From an uncultured Pseudomonadales bacterium (lineage in GTDB: Bacteria > Pseudomonadota > Gammaproteobacteria > Pseudomonadales > UBA7434): 64,000 nt of DNA. Location of the stretch: contig CALSRU010000004.1 of NCBI GenBank assembly GCA_943788835.1, positions 366,300 through 430,299 of the forward strand, written 5' to 3'. Position numbers and translations under genes: made by a program. Positions 328 through 39,196 of the stretch are shown here, piece by piece; within the stretch, counting starts at the first letter, position 1, and each line of letters begins with the position of its first letter. The notes under the pieces are model-generated. The model was given only the letters and a program-made list of their open reading frames with translations, made no database searches and was not told the DNA's origin.

Positions 328-2226
328 TCAAGGGATCGTTTTACCATTGGGATAAAGCGGCGGTAAAGTATCTTTGCTATCAGTCGCGACACTTGGCAGG
401 TTGCGTATAGCGTCACCGAGTAACTCGCCGTTCCAACTTGGCTGATCCTTTGTATCGCTAGGAGCACTGTAGAGCCAAGCGTTGAGATCTTCGCCTGCCT
501 TGGTGAGTGCTGCACTGCCAATTAAGGCCATGATGGCCTCGCTGCTACGAGCGTGATTAAACGCGTTGTCTGTTGAGAGGTGGCTCATGGAGGATGCACT
601 GTGGCCAGCGCGTTCATAAGCGTAGGCTTTTAACCATAGGCTTAATGCTTGCTTAGCTGCGGCGGCATTATTATCTGCACAGGCCTGTTGTAATGTGCGG
701 AGACAAGCGCCGCCGTTGATTGGATTTTTGACGGGGTTTGCCCGTTGATTTGGTCTAGCCTTGCCTGCTATTCGGTTGCGTTTAATCCATAGGGCGCCAG
801 CTACTACTGTTGCAAGCCAGGCAAGCATTGCCCAAATCGCTATATTACGCCAAAAAGACGTCGGACTTTTATCGTCGGTAGGCTCGATGGTATTTCCTAA
901 GTCGCTGCGGCCAACGATTGTTTGTGAGCCAGCGCCTGCTGGTGTCGAAGCTTCTGCTCGTTGTGTAGATACGGGCAACGTATTCGTCTTCGCGCTATTG
1001 GGTGCATCGGCAACATAAAAGGTTTTGCTGGGTAAACTTGCGGTTCGTTCCTTTCCCGATTTTGTATCCCACCAGGTTAGCGTTGTTGCGGGTAGCGTAA
1101 AGTTACCAGAGCGTGTGGGTATAAGTGCAAAGGTGTCAACGCGTTTGCCTGCCACACCGCCTTGCCATGGTTGGCTAATGAAAGCCGGTTTTTCTGGATA
1201 GATATTGAGTCCATCAATGGTTGTACTTTTGGGCAGTGGAAGTTGCGCTCCAGCTAAGCCCTCGGCAAAGATCTCGATCGAGCGCGTGAGAGGTTGGCCA
1301 ACAACGGCGTTAGTGTCGCTATCGTCCCATTGCTCGGTTATGGTGAGACTCTCTGCTGGCAACCATGATTTACCCTGCGCGGCAGCGGGAATATCCTTGA
1401 CCAAAAACTTTATAGGGTCTGCGCCCAGTTTTATTTGCCGGCCGCCGGCTAATGAATTTGCGCTAAAGCCGAGGCCAAAACGACTGCGATTTGCGCCAAT
1501 GACCGCGGTGAGTACCTGAGGTTCTATGTTGATGGCGCCGGCTTCTTTAAAAAATAGAGCATAGCGTTTTTCCACTACCTGATAAGTTTGCCCACCGATG
1601 CTGCGTTGATAGGTAACATCTTCGAGTTCTGTAATGTCCGTATTAGGAATTTTTAGCGGGGTGATTTCAGCATTGTTTAACCCGACCCGATAAATAACAC
1701 GAAACGTATAGAGTACCTGCTCGTCGACATAGGCATTGGCTTTATCGGTTTCAGCCTGTACCACCATTGATTGATCATCTAATCGATCCGGTGGTGCTAC
1801 TGGTTCGCGAATAGTGATTGTTATCGGGGCGCTGCTGCGTTTGCGCTGCGTGATAGGTGGAATTGTGAAAGTGCCTACTGCCTTGGGTGCTAACGTAAGT
1901 ACTAGTTTTTGTACCGATTCGGTACGGCCATTCACCATCGAGTATTCACTCTGAGATGATCGATTGACGATAGTAAAATGCTCGTTAATTGCTTGGATAT
2001 TGATTGTATCGAAGCCTTTACTGTCGTTACTGCGGAGCTCTAAACGCAGGGTTTCATTGAAGGGTAGCGATTGCCTATCGGCAGTCACTACCAATGCCCA
2101 CGACAATTTTGGCAGACATAAACCAATGAATAAAAAGCAACAAAGTCCGCCCAACTTTAATAGATAAGTGAGCCGCTTGGTTTGATTTGTCTGGCTATGC
2201 GGTTTATTAATTACGTGGTTTACCAT
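328..2226 (-). CDS. batD: BatD-like protein, Bat aerotolerance operon
   Basis: This 632-residue protein has a hydrophobic signal segment near residues 25-45 ending in LSWA, a long beta-rich periplasmic region, and one membrane helix near residue 470 (WAMLAWLATVVAGALWI) before a cytoplasmic tail. That layout and the position after the two VWA genes fit BatD (oxygen tolerance family). BatD proteins are thought to act with BatA and BatB in the inner membrane; their biochemical role is not settled. The start overlaps the end of the upstream batB/C gene by 7 bases, so the two are probably translationally coupled. It is the last gene of the six-gene operon. Confidence 0.82.
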   Translation of the reverse strand: MVNHVINKPHSQTNQTKRLTYLLKLGGLCCFLFIGLCLPKLSWALVVTADRQSLPFNETLRLELRSNDSKGFDTINIQAINEHFTIVNRSSQSEYSMVNGRTESVQKLVLTLAPKAVGTFTIPPITQRKRSSAPITITIREPVAPPDRLDDQSMVVQAETDKANAYVDEQVLYTFRVIYRVGLNNAEITPLKIPNTDITELEDVTYQRSIGGQTYQVVEKRYALFFKEAGAINIEPQVLTAVIGANRSRFGLGFSANSLAGGRQIKLGADPIKFLVKDIPAAAQGKSWLPAESLTITEQWDDSDTNAVVGQPLTRSIEIFAEGLAGAQLPLPKSTTIDGLNIYPEKPAFISQPWQGGVAGKRVDTFALIPTRSGNFTLPATTLTWWDTKSGKERTASLPSKTFYVADAPNSAKTNTLPVSTQRAEASTPAGAGSQTIVGRSDLGNTIEPTDDKSPTSFWRNIAIWAMLAWLATVVAGALWIKRNRIAGKARPNQRANPVKNPINGGACLRTLQQACADNNAAAAKQALSLWLKAYAYERAGHSASSMSHLSTDNAFNHARSSEAIMALIGSAALTKAGEDLNAWLYSAPSDTKDQPSWNGELLGDAIRNLPSVATDSKDTLPPLYPNGKTIP

Positions 2227-4355
2227 AATTGACCATCTTTGCTTTCATCGACAACGTTGCCTTGGCGTTCTCGCACTTGGCGTTCATATTGAAATTTTCG
2301 GCGCAGTAAACCACCGGGGTCATCTTCTATTTTATTGAGCCATTGCTGTAATTTGACTTGCTCGGCCTCGTTTAATTGTTTTTGTGTCGGTAGTGACTGT
2401 TGTGAAGCAGCCTCTTGATCCTTTTCCTCCGCCGCTCCGGTTAGCTCATCAATTTGCGTATCGGCGCCATCGAAAGCAGTGCCCGGTTCACTTTCGTTAG
2501 GTTTGGCCGGCTCCTCTAAAGTGCCGCTAAAATCTGCCGAGCGTGATGATTGATCTTCATTTTGCGCCGAGTTGTTGTCTGCAGACTGCTCACTATCGCT
2601 GGCGGTTCGGTCTTGGGCGTTATCCTGCTTATTTGCATCGTTTTGCGTCTGTTGACCGGGCTGCGAGTTTTCGTCAGACGGATCGTCCGACGAGTTGTCG
2701 GCGGGTTCTTCTGCATTGTCTTGCGATGGATCTTGCTGCTCCGACTGTGATTGTTCCAGAAGTTTCTCGACAATTTTTTTTGCTTCACTTGCCGCAGCAA
2801 AATCCTCTTTCAGCTTAAGTGCTTGCGCATACTGCTCAATGGCCTCGGGTAAACTACCGTTGCGCGCTAACGCATGTGCAAAATTATAATGGGCGTAGGC
2901 AAGCGTTTTCTTCTCCTCGGCACTGACATCCTTATAGGCGTCGGCTGTCTTTGAGATGCTGCTAGTATCAGTGATGCTGGCCGCATTTTTTTCAGCGGCT
3001 AGGTTTTGTGTAAATGCGTCGAGCGCTTTTTCATATTGCTTGCCGCGAAAGGCCGCCGCACCGCGCCAATCGCTGCGTTTAAACAATTGTGCGGCTTGTT
3101 CATATTGTTGATTGCGCCATAGCTTTTGGGCCTGTTGGTCGGGTGATTGCCAGAGATTTTGAAAGCGCCAGCTTTTAGGCGGCTGTTTTAGGACGGCTGT
3201 ATCATCAGTGGCTGAAGATTCAACTTGGCTTGGTGGAACGTTTACCGGGCTGTCATCAGCATAAGTAGCTATTGGCTGTATAGAGGCTAAAGGTAGCAAG
3301 AGTAGACACGTCAGCACCCAGCCGCGGCGAAAGGCGCATAGTGCTATGGGTAAAATAAAAAAACAAAGACTCGCGCCGCGATCGAGCCATGCATCGAACA
3401 TGAGCGTGTCTTGTGCATAATCATCTACCAGTGGATTGTTACTCTCATGCGAGAAATCACTTGTTGCGGTGCTTTTTAGCGCGAGCGCAATGTCGGAGTT
3501 ATCATCACGCATATTAATATAAGTGCCGCCACTGTTGCTCGCCAGGCTACGCAGTGTTGTGGAGTCAAGTTTTGCCGTTGCGATTGTGCCTCGCGCATTT
3601 TTGAGGAATTTTCCGTTGGGCAGTGGTATTGGGCCACCGGTTGCTGTGCCAATGCCGATGATTATCAGTTCGGCGCCACTAGCGCTCACAAGGCGGCTTA
3701 CTTCGGCTTTATCGCGGCTGAGTACCTCATCAGTGAACCAAACAATGCGTGCTCTATCAGGCGTTGTTTTGAGTAGGGTTTCTGCCAGTAGAAAAGCCGC
3801 CTTGGCATTGCTGCCAATGCTTGGCATGATTTCTGGACTGAGTGAGGGGACGAGTGCGGCAATGGTTTTCGCATCGTCGGTGAGTGGACTGACGAGATGC
3901 GCATCACCAGAGTAGGCGATGAGTGCAGTATGCCCTTCATCGCGTCGCGCCAAAAGCTCAAGCAACTTAAAACGCATGCGGGTTAAGCGTGAGGGAGCGA
4001 TGTCTTGAGTATGCATCGATAACGTCAGATCAGCTATCACGATAACGGTACTGCTAGCTTTTATAGGAGTCTGCGGAAGTTTCTCCCATGCCGGTCCTGC
4101 CAAGGCTACGAGGCCAATACTTGTAGCCAGCGCACAGGCGGCTAAAGGTAGCGCGCGCTTTCGCTCCGTAAGGACGTTGGCTGAGTTGTTTAGAAGATAG
4201 CTAAGTAACGCGGGGTCAATCACCCGCTGCCATTGTGATTGGCCACGATGAGTGTGCCAATGCCAATAAAATAAGAGTAATGCCGGTGGTATTGCCAGCA
4301 GCCATAAAGGGCGCAGCCAATGCAGCGTTAAGAGAGTATTCAGTAGTTCGCTCAT
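2220..4355 (-). CDS. batB: BatB/BatC fusion: VWA domain plus TPR and acidic tail
   Basis: This 711-residue protein begins with the LHWLRPLWLLAIPPALLLFY membrane segment typical of aerotolerance proteins, followed by a second membrane helix near 70-88 and a VWA domain whose metal site starts with DLTLS (109-113, a D-x-T-x-S form). A third helix lies near residue 320. From about 390 to 520 there are TPR-like helices (AQLFKRSDWRGAAAFRGKQY; AYAHYNFAHALARNGSLPEA), and from about 540 to 670 a Gln/Asp/Ser/Glu-rich low-complexity tail. The order VWA then TPR equals BatB and BatC joined in one chain, as in many gammaproteobacteria. It overlaps batA by 4 bases and batD by 7. Confidence 0.88.
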   Translation of the reverse strand: MSELLNTLLTLHWLRPLWLLAIPPALLLFYWHWHTHRGQSQWQRVIDPALLSYLLNNSANVLTERKRALPLAACALATSIGLVALAGPAWEKLPQTPIKASSTVIVIADLTLSMHTQDIAPSRLTRMRFKLLELLARRDEGHTALIAYSGDAHLVSPLTDDAKTIAALVPSLSPEIMPSIGSNAKAAFLLAETLLKTTPDRARIVWFTDEVLSRDKAEVSRLVSASGAELIIIGIGTATGGPIPLPNGKFLKNARGTIATAKLDSTTLRSLASNSGGTYINMRDDNSDIALALKSTATSDFSHESNNPLVDDYAQDTLMFDAWLDRGASLCFFILPIALCAFRRGWVLTCLLLLPLASIQPIATYADDSPVNVPPSQVESSATDDTAVLKQPPKSWRFQNLWQSPDQQAQKLWRNQQYEQAAQLFKRSDWRGAAAFRGKQYEKALDAFTQNLAAEKNAASITDTSSISKTADAYKDVSAEEKKTLAYAHYNFAHALARNGSLPEAIEQYAQALKLKEDFAAASEAKKIVEKLLEQSQSEQQDPSQDNAEEPADNSSDDPSDENSQPGQQTQNDANKQDNAQDRTASDSEQSADNNSAQNEDQSSRSADFSGTLEEPAKPNESEPGTAFDGADTQIDELTGAAEEKDQEAASQQSLPTQKQLNEAEQVKLQQWLNKIEDDPGGLLRRKFQYERQVRERQGNVVDESKDGQLW

Positions 4356-7268: not shown

Positions 7269-8255
7269 TTAAACAACGGGAACGATATCAATGAGTTTGT
7301 CGATAGCCGTATTGGCATTAATGCCGTTGGCCTCAGCTTCAAAGCTAACGATAATTCTGTGTCGCAGTACGTCATGGGCAACTGCCTGCACGTCGTCGGG
7401 CGTGACGAAATCATCACCGCGCAACCATGCATTGGCGCGAGCACAGCGATCAAGTGCAAGCGTTGCACGTGGGCTACCGCCATAATCTATCCAGTTTTTT
7501 AGCGCCATATCAAATTTTTCTGGTGTCCGACTTGCAATGACGAGCTGCACAATGTACTGCTCGACTGCCGGTGACATATGCATGTCGAGAATTTCGCGTC
7601 GTGCGGCAAAAATACATGCATCGGTAACGGGTTCGATGTCGCCAGCGGGCATACTAGCCTCGGCTTGACCGAGGTCGCCGCGCAGCTCATTGCGTACTAA
7701 ACGTAATATATCTAACTCGGTTGCTGCGTCGGGGTAGTCGACCGTTACATGCAGTAAAAAGCGATCCAGTTGTGCCTCGGGCAAAGGATATGTGCCTTCT
7801 TGTTCAATAGGGTTTTGTGTGGCCATGACCAAAAAGAGTTCAGGTAATGGGTATGTCGTTTTACCCACACTCACCTGTCGTTCAGCCATAGCCTCCAGCA
7901 GAGCTGCTTGCACTTTGGCCGGGGCGCGATTGATCTCATCGGCCAGTACTAAGTTGTGAAAGATAGGTCCAGATTGGAACTCAAAGTTGCCGGTTTGCGG
8001 ACGAAAAATGTCCGTGCCGGTGACGTCGCCAGGGAGTAGGTCTGGCGTGAACTGTATACGTTGAAAGTCGCCGGTGAGCCCCGTGGCGAGTGCGCGAATG
8101 GCGCGGGTCTTGGCAAGACCAGGGGCGCCTTCTACCAGCAGGTGTCCGTCGGCTAGCAAAGCCATAATGAGTCGCTCGACTAATCGAGACTGGCCTACAA
8201 TTTTTTCCGAAAGATAATCGCGAAGTGAAAAAAGAGCCTGAGTATTTTGTATCAT
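7269..8255 (-). CDS. moxR: MoxR-type AAA+ ATPase
   Basis: This 328-residue MoxR ATPase has Walker A GAPGLAKT (about 40-47), Walker B LVLADEINRAP (about 101-111), and the long MoxR sensor segment ATQNPIEQEGTYPLPEAQ. It is the first gene of the minus-strand operon and is expected to be the energy-using chaperone that acts on or through the VWA partners encoded downstream. It starts 312 bases from the divergent DUF2835 gene, so the operon promoter must lie in 8256-8567. Length and motifs are complete. Confidence 0.92.
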   Translation of the reverse strand: MIQNTQALFSLRDYLSEKIVGQSRLVERLIMALLADGHLLVEGAPGLAKTRAIRALATGLTGDFQRIQFTPDLLPGDVTGTDIFRPQTGNFEFQSGPIFHNLVLADEINRAPAKVQAALLEAMAERQVSVGKTTYPLPELFLVMATQNPIEQEGTYPLPEAQLDRFLLHVTVDYPDAATELDILRLVRNELRGDLGQAEASMPAGDIEPVTDACIFAARREILDMHMSPAVEQYIVQLVIASRTPEKFDMALKNWIDYGGSPRATLALDRCARANAWLRGDDFVTPDDVQAVAHDVLRHRIIVSFEAEANGINANTAIDKLIDIVPVV

Positions 8256-8567
8256 AATTGGGTAATCAAAAATTTAGATTAATGGTTAAACTGAGCCGTT
8301 CGTTGGCTTGCGGCGCTATAATCATGGGCATGTGCAACGATGGGGATCTGTTTTCCGCTAAGTTTTTCTCATCGACAAAACGGGAGTCATTGTATACAAG
8401 AGCGTGCGCTGTTGCATGTCTGATATCGATTATCAATGACTATCCTGCTCGCTTAAAGTTCAACTTTGGGAGCCGTTGACTTATTTAATGTGATGCGAGC
8501 TCTCTCGGTTTAAGTGATCTATTATTGGCAGCTAAAATAACCAACCAGAATCAGCTATTCTTGCTTT
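8256..8567. other. Divergent intergenic region, moxR / DUF2835
   Basis: This stretch separates the leftward Bat operon from the rightward DUF2835 gene and should hold both promoters. I could not pick a convincing -35/-10 pair. An open frame of 73 codons on the plus strand (8258-8479) has no ribosome site and no recognisable features. Confidence 0.4.
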
Positions 8568-30790: not shown

Positions 30791-33179
30791 ATGGTTACAA
30801 AAAGAATAGCTGCGCCCTTTCTCTCGCTGATGGTGACGGCCTGCTTGATGACTTTTACTGACTTGGACGCTATGGCATCTGCTGATGCTTATGTGGGGTC
30901 GCTGCAATGCGTGGGTTGTCATGCTGAAGCCTATGAGCAATGGAGTCAGTCCGATCATTTTAAGGCTATGGCCGAAGCAAATGAGCGCACGGTACTCGGC
31001 GATTTCTCCGAACGTGGAAGTTGACTTTCACGATATCCGCAGCCGATTCTTTATGCGCGATGGGGATTATTTTGTGAGTACGGTTGTTGCTGATACCCCG
31101 TCAGGCGAAGAGACCGAGCCTAAGGGGCAAGGTGTTGTACGGGGAGATTTTCTTATTCAATATACATTTGGCCATTACCCGTTGCAGCAATATCTTATTG
31201 AGCTGCCTAACGGCCACATTCAGGCGCTAAGTATTGCCTGGGATAGTCGGCCAGCGGGTGAGGGTGGTCAGCGCTGGATGCATTTACAGCCCGATGAAAT
31301 GATCACTCCGGAGCATCCGTTTTTTTGGACGCGGCACTTGCAAAACTGGAATAGTCGGTGCGCCGAATGCCATAGTACCAGGGTCGAGCTAGGTTACGAT
31401 GCCAAGCTTCGCAGCTTCGATACGACTTGGTCTGAGATCAACGTTGCTTGCGAGGCATGTCATGGGCCGGCTAAAGAACATCTACAATGGGCTGCAGCCA
31501 GCCCGATCGACGTGTTGGAGTGCACGAGTGAGGGGGAATTTAATACGCCCGCTGAGTCTAGCGGTAGTAAAGGGTTTGCTATTGATCCGACTAACCGTAA
31601 CCAATTTGTATTTGAGCCCGGTGAGGGCATTGCCCGCAACGTGGGTGGTAATGGGCAGCAGCAAATAGAAGTGTGCGGTGGCTGTCATTCGCGACGCGCA
31701 ACGTTAACGAGCCCTGAGACTGCTCTTGATGGTATTACCAGTGGTGCAGACGCCTATCATGACCATTATGGCTTGAGTCTACTTGACCAAGGGCTTTATC
31801 ACGCTGATGGGCATATTCAAGACGAGGTCTTCGTTTTGGGTTCATTTTTGCAAAGTAAGATGCATGCGGCTGGCGTGACATGCAGTAATTGTCATAATCC
31901 TCATAGTGGGGAGCTGAAGGTTCCGGGTAATGCTATTTGTGCACAGTGCCACAGTCCGGCGGTGTTTGACCAACCTGAACACCATCATCATCCGATGGAC
32001 TCAGACGGCGCCCAATGTGTTAACTGCCACATGCCATCAAATACTTATATGCAGGTGGATTCAAGACGGGATCATGCTTTTTCAATTCCGCGACCCGCAG
32101 CATCGAATGCGTTGGGCGCACCTGATGCTTGCAGTGATTGTCATCACAATTGGATCGATTCAAAAGTGGCCGCGCAGTATGTTCGCTTGTATGGGGATGA
32201 GCGCAAAGATGTTTATAGCGAAATAAATGCGCAGGCTCGCCTGCTTAATGTTACTCAGTTACCGGCTATATTGAAGTTGGCTCAAGAGCCTTCGGTAGCA
32301 GCAGTTAGGCGTGCGACGTTATTAGCACAGGGCGTTAATTTCCCTGCGCGGATTACCCTCGAAGCCTTGCAGGATGCCCTCTATGACAAAGATCCTTTAG
32401 TGCGTCGTGCAGCTGTTGATGCATTAGCCTTTTTAGGGCCAGAAGAGCGCTTCGAATTACTGGATAAATGGGTTGAGGATCCTAGTAAAGTCGTGCGTAT
32501 GTCGGTGGCTAGGCAATTAATCGATCGAGCCGGTAACTTTGCGTCACCAAACTTGAAGCCAGAGGAGCAGCGTATTGAGGAGCTGATGCGCGAATATGAG
32601 GCGAGCTTGAGGGGTGTGCAGTACTCGCCTAGCGGTCAAATGGCATTGGCAGACTATTACAGTCGGCGCGGAGCTGTTGACCGGGCTGAGCAAGCATTGA
32701 CAGAAGCGCTCTTGATTGAACCAAATTATGTACCGGCGTTGCTCAATATGGCTGATTTTTATCGCTTGCGTGGTGCCGCGATGCAGGCAAAGGGCTTGTT
32801 GGATCAAGCTTTGTTGGTAGCGCCCGATAGTGCCGCGGCGCAGCACGCACTTGGCCTTTGGCTGGTGCGGGAGAAGCAAATGCCTCAGGCATTGCCGGTC
32901 CTGGAGCAGGCTGCGCGGCTTGATAGCAGCTCGCCTCGATACCTTTATGTTTTTGCCGTTGCGCTAGAATCGGCGGGTGAAAGTGACCGTGCTATCGCAG
33001 CTTTAATAGAAGCTAACGAGAGCTGGCCCTACCAGCCGGATGTATTGTTTGCGCTGATTGGGTATTTAGAAAAATATGAGCGGGTGCAAGAATTAACGCC
33101 GTTTCTGGCTGATTTGTCCCGAATTATGCCGGGCAATCGTCAGGTGAATGATTGGATTCGGCGCTATATTCAGCAATAG
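30791..33179 (+). pseudogene. Octaheme cytochrome c / TPR protein, interrupted by a +1 frameshift
   Basis: The first frame starts at ATG 30791 with a signal-like N-terminus and heme motif CVGCH, reads to VLGDF, then meets a stop at 31022-31024. The rest is in the next frame up to 33179 and carries seven more CxxCH motifs (CAECH, CEACH, CGGCH, CSNCH, CAQCH, CVNCH, CSDCH), HEAT-like repeats and a TPR C-terminus. Skipping one T at 31007 joins VLGDF to PNVEVDFHDIRSRFFMRDG without gap, the spacing I expect in this family. The intact product would be about 795 residues, periplasmic, with eight c-type hemes. It is either a recent pseudogene, a sequencing error or, least likely, recoding. Confidence 0.85.
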
Positions 33180-33754: not shown

Positions 33755-34223
33755 GCCTAAAACATTTTGCGTTCATTTTTGTTTTGATACCTTCGTGTAA
33801 AGTCACTTCGCAACAAAAGCATACGTGGATAAGCGGGCGTTTATGCGACACCCCTAAAATTTTGGTGATCGGTAAACGAACCACATTCTTTACTGATCAA
33901 ACCCATCCTATCGTAGTCTTCCTCAATCACCTATAGAATTGCTGTGCGCCCACAACAGGGTCGCAAGGTCTTGATAGATAGGGTCAGATGAGGCTCTCGC
34001 TATACTAGACAGCTTTCGTCAAGTTTTTTGATACGATGTATGCTATCGATTACAAGTCTAATTCTGGCAGGATGATCAAATATTAATTCGGTTACCTTAC
34101 TGTATTTCATGCGTATTATAGGTCTTAGTCACTATACTTTGATCGATCCATTTTCCACTTTGAGATAGGCTTATTACTCTCCTTACTTATATTCTTGACT
34201 GGCTCCGTAAGCTCTGGCCGACA
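33755..34223. other. A+T-rich intergenic region before the Rieske gene
   Basis: About 470 bases with no supportable gene. It holds one inverted repeat (separate entry). Confidence 0.45.
33866..33899. repeat. Inverted repeat, 11-base arms
   Basis: TGATCGGTAAA (33866-33876) and TTTACTGATCA (33889-33899) are reverse complements except for one position, with a 12-base spacer. No T-run follows, so it is more like an operator or RNA hairpin than a terminator. Confidence 0.7.
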
Positions 34224-35024
34224 ATGTCGCTTAGCCTTCCTCATGTTGCAAGTTACACTCGTGAGTTGCCAATAAGTCTTGCTCGTATGTATGAAAATGC
34301 GCTAGACGGCGAACATTTACCGTGGCTTCATAGGACCTCGTTTTCTCACTTAGAAATAATTGATAAAGGTAGTTGGGGGTGGCGAGCTAACGGTAATTTG
34401 GTACCTAAATCATTCATGAATAGTATGGAATTGGAATTGCGGTTAGATCGTGAGAAAAATTGTTGGATAACACGAATGACGGGTGGGCTAGGCAAAGGGA
34501 CTGAAATTTGGACTCATGCCTTTGAGCTTGAAGAAAATAAAATTAAGATTGTTGTCGACTTTTATATACCCAAACTACCTAATTTCTTGAAAAATTTATA
34601 CGCTGAAAAATTAGTACAGACTTACGCCCAATTATATGACGAAGATTTGTGGATGATGGCAACTCGTCAAAATGAGTTGGATCGACTTAAACTCGGTAAA
34701 AGTATCGAGCCGCTCGAGTCGATTGAGCTGGGCTTGTTCGTTGAGGTAGAGAATAAATTACCTCTCACGTTTAGCTTTAATAATAATCCTTATAAATTAG
34801 TGATGCTTGATAACAAGCTGCTGGCGTTTGCAGCTACCTGCCCGCATATGCTAGGTCCACTTCAAGACTGTGATATTGATCAAGGCCTTGTTGAATGTCC
34901 GTGGCATGGTTATAAGTTTGATGTGAAAAGCCGTGAGTGTATTAGTGGTGCTAAATGTAAACTTGCGCCAGCGCCGACGATTTCTATCGACGATGAATCG
35001 GGAATAATTACAGCTTCGACATAG
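34224..35024 (+). CDS. Rieske oxygenase-like protein with reversed domain order
   Basis: This 266-residue protein carries D28-x2-H31-x4-H36 in the context ENALDGEHLPWLH, the mononuclear-iron motif of ring-hydroxylating oxygenases, and EDLWMMATRQ around Asp141, which resembles the third-ligand motif. A Rieske domain follows: C206-P-H208 and C225-P-W-H228. In known alpha subunits the Rieske domain is N-terminal and the catalytic one C-terminal, and total length is 350-450; here the order is inverted and the chain short. No ferredoxin or reductase gene is nearby. The start is uncertain, as no good ribosome site precedes the ATG. Flanks of about 470 and 570 bases are gene-free. Confidence 0.78.
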   Translation: MSLSLPHVASYTRELPISLARMYENALDGEHLPWLHRTSFSHLEIIDKGSWGWRANGNLVPKSFMNSMELELRLDREKNCWITRMTGGLGKGTEIWTHAFELEENKIKIVVDFYIPKLPNFLKNLYAEKLVQTYAQLYDEDLWMMATRQNELDRLKLGKSIEPLESIELGLFVEVENKLPLTFSFNNNPYKLVMLDNKLLAFAATCPHMLGPLQDCDIDQGLVECPWHGYKFDVKSRECISGAKCKLAPAPTISIDDESGIITAST

Positions 35025-37882: not shown

Positions 37883-39196
37883 ATGCCTCTGACTCCCCAA
37901 TCGGCCGTTACATATAACTCTGGAAGTGATGCCACAAAGCTTGATGCAATCACAGGCGCGAATGAGCCGATTTATCAACGTATTCGCGATTTACCTAGTA
38001 AGGGTTTTACTATTGATTGGGTAAATACGATATTTATTTCGGTTACTCACCTCGTGCTACTGATTGGTACCCCGTTGGCTTACCTTTATGCTCCGGCAGG
38101 CTTTTGGAAAATCATGTTAGCTTGGACGTTGATTCATGCTTTGGTTGCGTGCCTATCTACCACGGTTTATGCGCACCGCTTAATCGCCCACGGTGCAGCG
38201 CGAAAAATAAGTTGGCCTGTGCATATTGTATTTGGTTTTGTTGGGCAGGTGTTGGCAATTCAAGGGAGCGTGCGTCGTTGGGCGGCCATGCACATCATTC
38301 ATCACGGCGTCGATCGCAACGGCAAGCACCATCTTGATCCTTACAGTGCCACTTGGTTTGACAGCACGTGGCGAAATTTCTTGTGGTCGCATATGCTGAC
38401 TTATTTCTTCTTTCATCCGGATAATGAAGCTACAGAAAAAGCTTATGAAGCTAAGAATGGTCGTATGTTAATTTGGCAAGATAAGCTCTACCTGCCGTTA
38501 TTGATATTACTGAATTTTTTGTTACCGCTGCTGTTAGGATTTTTATTAACTGGCACCGTGGTAGGCGCTCTATGCTTGCAGGTGGCCGCTGTGGGCGGTT
38601 TCATTCTAGCGCAGCACAATACTTGGACTGTCAATAGTGTGACGCACTTGTGGGGTGCGACTAAAGGCGCAATCAGCTCGGCCAAAAATAATTATATTTG
38701 GATGGGGCCGTTGGGCGAGGGCAATCATCATGCCGACCATCACGACCATGGGCATGATTACCGCAACGGGTTTGGCTGGAGCGGCTGGTTACTCGACCCT
38801 ACTCGGTATGTCATATTGTTACTCAGAGGCTTAGGTCTAGTTAAGGGCTTGCAACGAGCGAGCAAGCACAAAGAAGCGCAGATACTCGCGCGTCGAGCTT
38901 TGCAGAGGGCACAAACGCAATCACAGCCCTCGCGATGGTGTAAATATGAACGTAAGCTTGAAGCGTTAAAGAGAGACTGGTTAGAGGCTACTCGTCGCTG
39001 GGAAAAATTTAAAACGCAACAGGCCCAATTAAAAGCCAGCTACATCGAAAAATTTGAAACTCGACAGAAATTTGAACTTAAGCAAAAAATGGCTGCAGTC
39101 AAGGAGGATATGCGTGAGGCAAAACAGCTTATGCGTGCACGCAAGCAACTCTTCTTTACCGCAGTTGCTGAGGTGTATGCACCGCAATACGCATAA
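37883..39196 (+). CDS. Delta-9-type acyl-CoA/fatty acid desaturase
   Basis: This 437-residue protein has four membrane helices and the three histidine boxes of the stearoyl-CoA desaturase group: HRLIAHG, HIIHHGVDRNGKHH and GEGNHHADHHDHGHDY. These bind the di-iron centre that introduces a double bond into acyl chains. From about 320 the protein has an extra 110-residue tail rich in Lys/Arg/Glu/Gln, predicted helical or coiled coil (YERKLEALKRDWLEATRRWE). The ribosome site is weak. Confidence 0.92.
   Translation: MPLTPQSAVTYNSGSDATKLDAITGANEPIYQRIRDLPSKGFTIDWVNTIFISVTHLVLLIGTPLAYLYAPAGFWKIMLAWTLIHALVACLSTTVYAHRLIAHGAARKISWPVHIVFGFVGQVLAIQGSVRRWAAMHIIHHGVDRNGKHHLDPYSATWFDSTWRNFLWSHMLTYFFFHPDNEATEKAYEAKNGRMLIWQDKLYLPLLILLNFLLPLLLGFLLTGTVVGALCLQVAAVGGFILAQHNTWTVNSVTHLWGATKGAISSAKNNYIWMGPLGEGNHHADHHDHGHDYRNGFGWSGWLLDPTRYVILLLRGLGLVKGLQRASKHKEAQILARRALQRAQTQSQPSRWCKYERKLEALKRDWLEATRRWEKFKTQQAQLKASYIEKFETRQKFELKQKMAAVKEDMREAKQLMRARKQLFFTAVAEVYAPQYA

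Follow-up and report, generated by a model that had tools for sequence, protein, structure and literature searches.

A candidate family of Rieske oxygenases with the catalytic domain placed before the Rieske domain

Characterised Rieske oxygenases, SxtT among them, carry the Rieske domain first and the catalytic domain second, as the authors of the SxtT report write (PMC7293229). A gene of an uncultured Pseudomonadales bacterium raises the question of whether such an enzyme can also be laid out the other way round. The gene lies in a stretch of 64,000 nucleotides, which we call the window; its open reading frame at 34224-35024 (forward strand, 266 amino acids by translation) is the only Rieske place of the window. 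A sequence-only reading had proposed that it encodes an oxygenase with its domains in reversed order, and had named as metal-site residues D28, H31, H36, D141, C206, H208, C225 and H228, all of which the translation places where that reading had them. The catalytic motif indeed comes first and the Rieske motif last in the window protein, and they do so in all 18 relatives that we collected. The word permuted, used in the same reading, is apt for the exchange of whole domains but not for anything within them: we rejected circular permutation inside a domain because the catalytic and the Rieske motifs each run in their normal internal order.

The second half of the protein was identified by sequence alone, the listed fold-search matches covering the N-terminal half. 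The Pfam Rieske domain PF00355 matches residues 174-242 (34743..34949, forward strand) with an E value of 2.8e-10 and a score of 40.4 bits, the cut-off being 20.3, and it encloses both parts of the putative ligand set of a [2Fe-2S] cluster, C206-P-H208 at 34839..34847 and C225-P-W-H228 at 34896..34907. Compared with PDB sequences, the full protein retrieves Rieske proteins through this half (best DdmC, E 4.1e-4, query residues 180-241). The NCBIfam model that fits the Rieske half best is AndAb, a ferredoxin subunit, whose cut-off is missed by a wide margin (E 1.4e-5). Of 56 Rieske domains placed in a tree, the 19 with reversed order fall into a single group (support 100/99), separate from both the canonical-oxygenase (14) and the ferredoxin-sized (23) domains, these labels denoting motif order and frame length and not function; the tree was built from 96 columns and its deeper forks are unsure. 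Since the reversed-order domains group together, the tree fits a single origin of the architecture.

Is the first half (34224..34697, forward strand) a catalytic domain? A helix-grip fold of this half, on which the sequence-only reading had staked its claim beforehand, is what a structure model built from 12 sequences predicts (pLDDT 89.1, pTM 0.78): the N-terminal half takes the Bet v 1/START form, with a Foldseek match at E 1.3e-7 and, in a VIA fold search, a Z score of 15.1 to 2flh over model residues 21-163. When this domain was modelled alone, its secondary structure was unchanged (pLDDT 82) and it gave the same kind of fold match. The best fits in the fold searches are Bet v 1/START proteins of plants and others like them, and no Rieske oxygenase structure is found among the 50 matches listed for each search, though one may stand lower down.

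Profiles of known families add to this picture. Searched against the Pfam SRPBCC and Rieske families, as had been proposed as a check, the N-terminal half of the window protein stays below threshold, with traces of VanA_C (E 0.16) and DUF5914 (E 0.2), and that of a member from the window's genus, L014, exceeds the gathering cut-off of Ring_hydroxyl_A (26.5 versus 24.9 bits, residues 15-145 of 152). At E<=1 VanA_C matches the N-terminal domains of 17 of the 19 members (best 3.8e-4) and Ring_hydroxyl_A those of seven; seven of the eight relatives whose N-terminal domains were scanned against Pfam cut-offs lie below every catalytic-domain cut-off. Profile-profile comparison with two sets of canonical catalytic domains, A4 (10 rows) and A5 (3 rows), gave E values of 4.7e-6 and 1.3e-5 (probability 86 and 80%), and of 7e-7 and 3.9e-6 (92 and 87%) when 19 rows were used, in local alignments that span just 29-46 columns around the ligand helix. 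Global alignment of the profiles places D141 on the canonical aspartate of the C-terminal helix in both A4 and A5. The N-domain profile also matches a canonical Rieske-first oxygenase (L049, from genome G1194; E 8.7e-4), and among PDB sequences (hmmsearch, E<=10) it retrieved no oxygenase and three kinase sequences at E 0.8-0.9. Three lines, namely the predicted fold, the family profiles and the profile comparison, agree in pointing to a catalytic domain of the Rieske-oxygenase type.

The residues that would make up the mononuclear iron site are H31 (34314..34316) and H36 (34329..34331), the putative histidine ligands, both aligned with canonical histidines, and D141 (34644..34646), the putative carboxylate ligand; D28 (34305..34307) is, by the SxtT-like spacing of the motif, the counterpart of the bridging Asp161 of SxtT (all on the forward strand). 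When the window protein was aligned with its 18 relatives (minimum pairwise identity 29.5%), these four residues and C206, H208, C225 and H228 were each identical in all 19 rows, the rows having been picked by the pattern N..[DE]..H....H before C.H...C..H, a filter that prescribes most of the eight residues, does not contain D141, allows D or E at position 28 and let through all 18 relatives found by homology. Altogether 42 residues of the alignment are invariant, N25 and all eight ligand or bridging residues among them. Second copies of places already counted (L001, L013, L042, L044, L045, L050, L051 and, as larger regions, L052-L059) were excluded, and L062 is the window itself. Judged from this alignment, conservation of the putative ligands exceeds chance, and the three iron ligands, whose variation among homologues had been named as grounds for abandoning the claim, are invariant together with the bridging aspartate.

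Eleven of the relatives, with 40-92% identity, came from a scan of contigs and derive from 18 stretches; the remaining ones were found in the order (L014-L016), the phylum (L043) and the class of G575 (L046-L048), L013 having the same coordinates as L002. Across the order, matches occur in 64 of 194 genomes and are near full length in five (G000, which is the window's own genome, G012, G087, G179 and G039), the other listed matches beginning at query residue 148 at the earliest, in or beside the Rieske half. With the N-domain profile, matches were obtained in two of 398 genomes of the phylum (G000 and G548, the latter of the window's phylum and not of its class), in one of 395 genomes of the phylum of G571, which is the seed itself, and in five of 369 genomes of the class of G575, four of them of reversed order (the seed, G1081, G1112 and G1198) and one the canonical L049. 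The 19-row profile likewise matched five of 369 genomes of the window's class, four with reversed order, including G000, and one at the place of L049, and in these 369 genomes it revealed no clearly new member: apart from the window, its matches carry the contig numbers of the earlier class search and almost the same positions.

The family is sparse, occurring in some Pseudomonadota, mostly Gammaproteobacteria, and in Bacteroidota; by the titles of their records, the relatives belong to Gammaproteobacteria and Bacteroidota (Saprospiraceae, Polaribacter). The five Bacteroidota rows are 53-58% identical to the window protein, an identity that suggests horizontal transfer between Pseudomonadota and Bacteroidota. 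The tree forces no more than one change of phylum, and misbinned metagenome contigs may be the source of the cross-phylum likeness. In plasmid records, matches were confined to the Rieske half (four records, three annotated as NifU proteins), and a search of PHROGs gave no match at E 0.001. A different combination is seen at L023, where a single open frame (1342-3104) joins a Rieske motif to a thiamine diphosphate enzyme, pyruvate-oxidase-like, that follows it.

The sequence-only reading had the gene begin at the first ATG, 34224, and by doing so missed a conserved upstream helix. Ahead of this ATG the frame stays open for a further 20 codons, and the segment 34173-34223 is conserved, L002 departing from the window at 5 of its 51 bases, of which four are third codon positions. 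At the place of the ATT shared by the window and L002, nine relatives carry ATG; the protein therefore probably has 283 amino acids, with a probable full coding sequence at 34173..35024 (forward strand). ATT is a rare start codon, known for infC; it becomes a probable one here because ten relatives share the helix and the segment differs little from that of L002, mainly at third positions. Probably, then, translation starts at ATT 34173, or else the product has recently lost the helix. The helix (34173..34223, forward strand) is amphipathic and present in 11 of the 19 members (the window, L002-L010 and L014), hydrophobic-basic in these relatives, and lacking in the other eight members as read here. 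An AlphaFold model has a helix at residues 2-14 (pLDDT about 64), and the helical moment is 0.43-0.60 in the ten sequences for which it was computed (the window, L003-L010 and L014), which would fit a helix lying on the membrane surface.

Between the window and L002 (NG86), dN is 0.037 and dS 0.234 over the whole gene, a dN/dS of about 0.16; the values are 0.022 and 0.248 for the catalytic part and 0.061 and 0.214 for the Rieske part. The gene is under purifying selection, which is stricter for the catalytic than for the Rieske part.

Does the neighbourhood suggest a redox partner or a substrate? The gene had been described as lying in a gene-poor, A+T-rich stretch without redox partners. The base composition bears this out (about 40-43% G+C versus 47-55% in most flanking windows), but genes are close by: on the upstream side a cold-shock gene at 0.5 kb, on the downstream side a NUDIX gene at 0.6 kb. 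The lack of redox partners also holds: within the window there is no FAD_binding_6 or Fer2 place at E<=0.001, and no dedicated reductase or ferredoxin adjoins the gene. Elsewhere in the genome lie two FAD_binding_6 and four Fer2 places, and a 408-aa frame that combines the two domains may be NqrF-like. The genome also has a Rieske place (L060, contig C5, 58-300) in a 197-aa frame at a contig end, which by its motif may be the start of a Rieske-first oxygenase.

The scanned neighbours in the window (a multihaem cytochrome, a cold-shock protein, NUDIX and ABC1-kinase) include no lipid genes and offer no substrate lead. The cytochrome is a 764-aa frame at 30885-33179 (forward strand) with doubled CXXCH motifs of multihaem cytochrome c, HEAT and TPR repeats, matched by 21 NCBIfam models, none at its cut-off. 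Further downstream, a 437-aa frame at 37883-39196 (forward strand) has no Pfam match at E 0.001, and a DesA-family fatty acid desaturase model matches it far below cut-off (33.6 versus 400 bits).

In the relatives the neighbourhoods differ, and none of the operon partners seen recurs throughout the family. Several of the relatives adjoin acyl-CoA or lipid genes. By Pfam, L054 is surrounded by enoyl-CoA hydratase and luciferase-like genes and also a 1043-aa open reading frame, and L012 and L053 have the same three neighbours, as compared by eye over the first 60-70 residues; L055 has two acyl-CoA dehydrogenase frames and NMO upstream, and L059 an enoyl-CoA hydratase upstream; the gene adjoins KAS III in L056, an FMO-like gene in L052 and patatin in L007, and in L057 an epimerase/3-beta-HSD-like gene lies downstream. 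Other surroundings speak against lipids: the genes scanned beside L003 (DUF6436) and beside L006 (a mechanosensitive channel) are not of lipid type, and L009 has MeaB and RecG. Of L003-L010, the neighbour scan took in L003, L006, L007 and L009, and the genes named here are common ones. On account of the acyl-CoA and lipid genes, the neighbourhoods lean towards a hydrophobic substrate, which may be acyl, isoprenoid or steroid-like. Two other arrangements were observed: a 777-aa frame, with weak PHB-depolymerase-like similarity below cut-off in L057, ends directly before the reversed-order gene in L057 (7028-9358) and L058 (1032-3362), and in L059 a gene for an Rv3169-family protein (7386-8489, E 2.2e-105) stands beside a phosphotransferase/EcKL gene downstream of the reversed-order gene.

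Could these observations be explained by something other than an oxygenase? A lipid- or ligand-binding protein of the START/Bet v 1 kind might have been fused to a Rieske ferredoxin, in which case the helix-grip half would bind a hydrophobic ligand or a redox cofactor in place of catalytic iron, with the Rieske half serving as an electron carrier. The structural matches of the N-terminal half and the AndAb match of the Rieske half are both what such a fusion would give. Yet the D-x2-H-x4-H and D set is invariant in the family and can be aligned with canonical oxygenases, the score of L014 is above the Ring_hydroxyl_A cut-off, and in the tree the Rieske halves join neither the ferredoxin-sized nor the canonical-oxygenase domains; we regard the fusion as unlikely.

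We find it harder still to believe that the protein has the reversed order and both metal sites but is no oxygenase, using them, for example, as an O2/NO sensor or in the response to oxidative stress. The patchy distribution, the lack of a family-wide operon partner and the absence of a reductase nearby would suit a protein of this kind, whereas the acyl-CoA and lipid enzymes beside several relatives are as for a metabolic enzyme, and Pfam found no regulatory domain. An artefact of annotation or assembly, either a canonical gene that was cut and rejoined or a chance reading frame, might be suspected in an A+T-rich stretch of a genome in 17 contigs, but it deserves next to no credence: there are no internal stops where these were counted, dN/dS is low, and the existence of 18 relatives of the same order led us to reject both a chance frame and an assembly artefact. 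The window protein is, in our judgement, very probably a Rieske-type non-heme iron oxygenase with its two domains swapped.

How might an oxygenase of this layout work? The N-terminal helix-grip domain would hold one Fe(II) between H31, H36 and D141, and the C-terminal domain a [2Fe-2S] cluster between C206, H208, C225 and H228. An external reductase, none being encoded nearby, would reduce the cluster, from which an electron would pass to the mononuclear iron by way of D28, which corresponds to the canonical inter-subunit aspartate bridge; the reduced iron would then activate O2, and a substrate in the helix-grip cavity would be hydroxylated, desaturated or demethylated. We infer enzymatic activity, and the same chemistry, from the positions of D28, H31, H36 and D141, which are spaced nearly as the residues D161, H164, H169 and D280 given for SxtT (PMC7293229). 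The amphipathic helix suggests that the protein may dock to the membrane and that its substrate may be hydrophobic, of an acyl, isoprenoid or steroid-like type.

According to the same source, the Rieske cluster and the iron of a single SxtT chain are nearly 45 angstrom apart, and because of this distance electrons cross between the subunits of the trimer, by way of Asp161 and Tyr76 (PMC7293229). In the window protein the Rieske domain follows the catalytic domain, so the cluster could serve the iron of its own chain or, as in the canonical trimers, that of a neighbouring subunit. It is conceivable, though we hold it rather doubtful, that each cluster passes its electron to the iron within the same chain, in a monomer or a non-trimeric assembly that has kept the canonical bridging aspartate. 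A reversed order combined with an invariant bridging aspartate and invariant metal sites offers a test of whether the trimeric wiring is indispensable or just follows from the usual sequence of the domains, and the family provides a small two-domain scaffold for engineering. Profile searches alone read these proteins mainly as plain Rieske proteins.

The two halves each have likenesses outside the oxygenases. Bet v 1/START (SRPBCC) proteins such as norcoclaurine synthase and cytokinin-specific binding protein have the predicted fold of the N-terminal half in common with the window protein, but they are not known to have a D-x2-H-x4-H...D metal site, catalytic iron or an attached Rieske domain. 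The Rieske ferredoxins AndAb, CarAc and HcaC share a short Rieske domain and sequence similarity with the C-terminal half; they are, in contrast, separate small proteins, and the reversed-order Rieske domains group alone in a tree that does not include these three. In the titles and abstract beginnings of the literature matches listed, no reversed-order Rieske oxygenase is described. A hydroxylase with another domain first and a Rieske domain last does exist in NamH, the mycobacterial muramic acid hydroxylase, which has an N-terminal UlaG domain (PMC10050696), a likeness that implies no relationship. The first half of NamH belongs to the UlaG/beta-lactamase superfamily, whereas that of the window protein is a predicted helix-grip domain and the window protein has no Pfam match to that superfamily; we rejected a NamH-like hydroxylase because its first domain is different.

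With the Rieske non-heme iron oxygenases (SxtT/GxtA, the dicamba monooxygenase DdmC, VanA, KshA and PaO) the window protein has in common the Rieske CxH...CxxH set and, as predicted, the helix-grip catalytic domain. Its Rieske domain falls outside the tree group of the canonical oxygenases, and the catalytic domain of the family lies below Pfam cut-offs except in L014, among the members for which cut-offs were shown. The spacing of the bridging aspartate and the two histidines is the same as in SxtT, and from the second histidine to the carboxylate it is 105 residues (H36 to D141) versus 111 (H169 to D280), by the numbering in PMC7293229. The description compact, given earlier, applies to the whole protein, probably 283 residues versus 351-446 in canonical oxygenase frames (12 places), and not to the spacing of its ligands. 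By the residues that define function the family appears to work like other Rieske oxygenases, and it is probably a new architectural variant of them that acts on a hydrophobic substrate at the membrane, departing from the characterised layout in having the catalytic domain first and the Rieske domain last.
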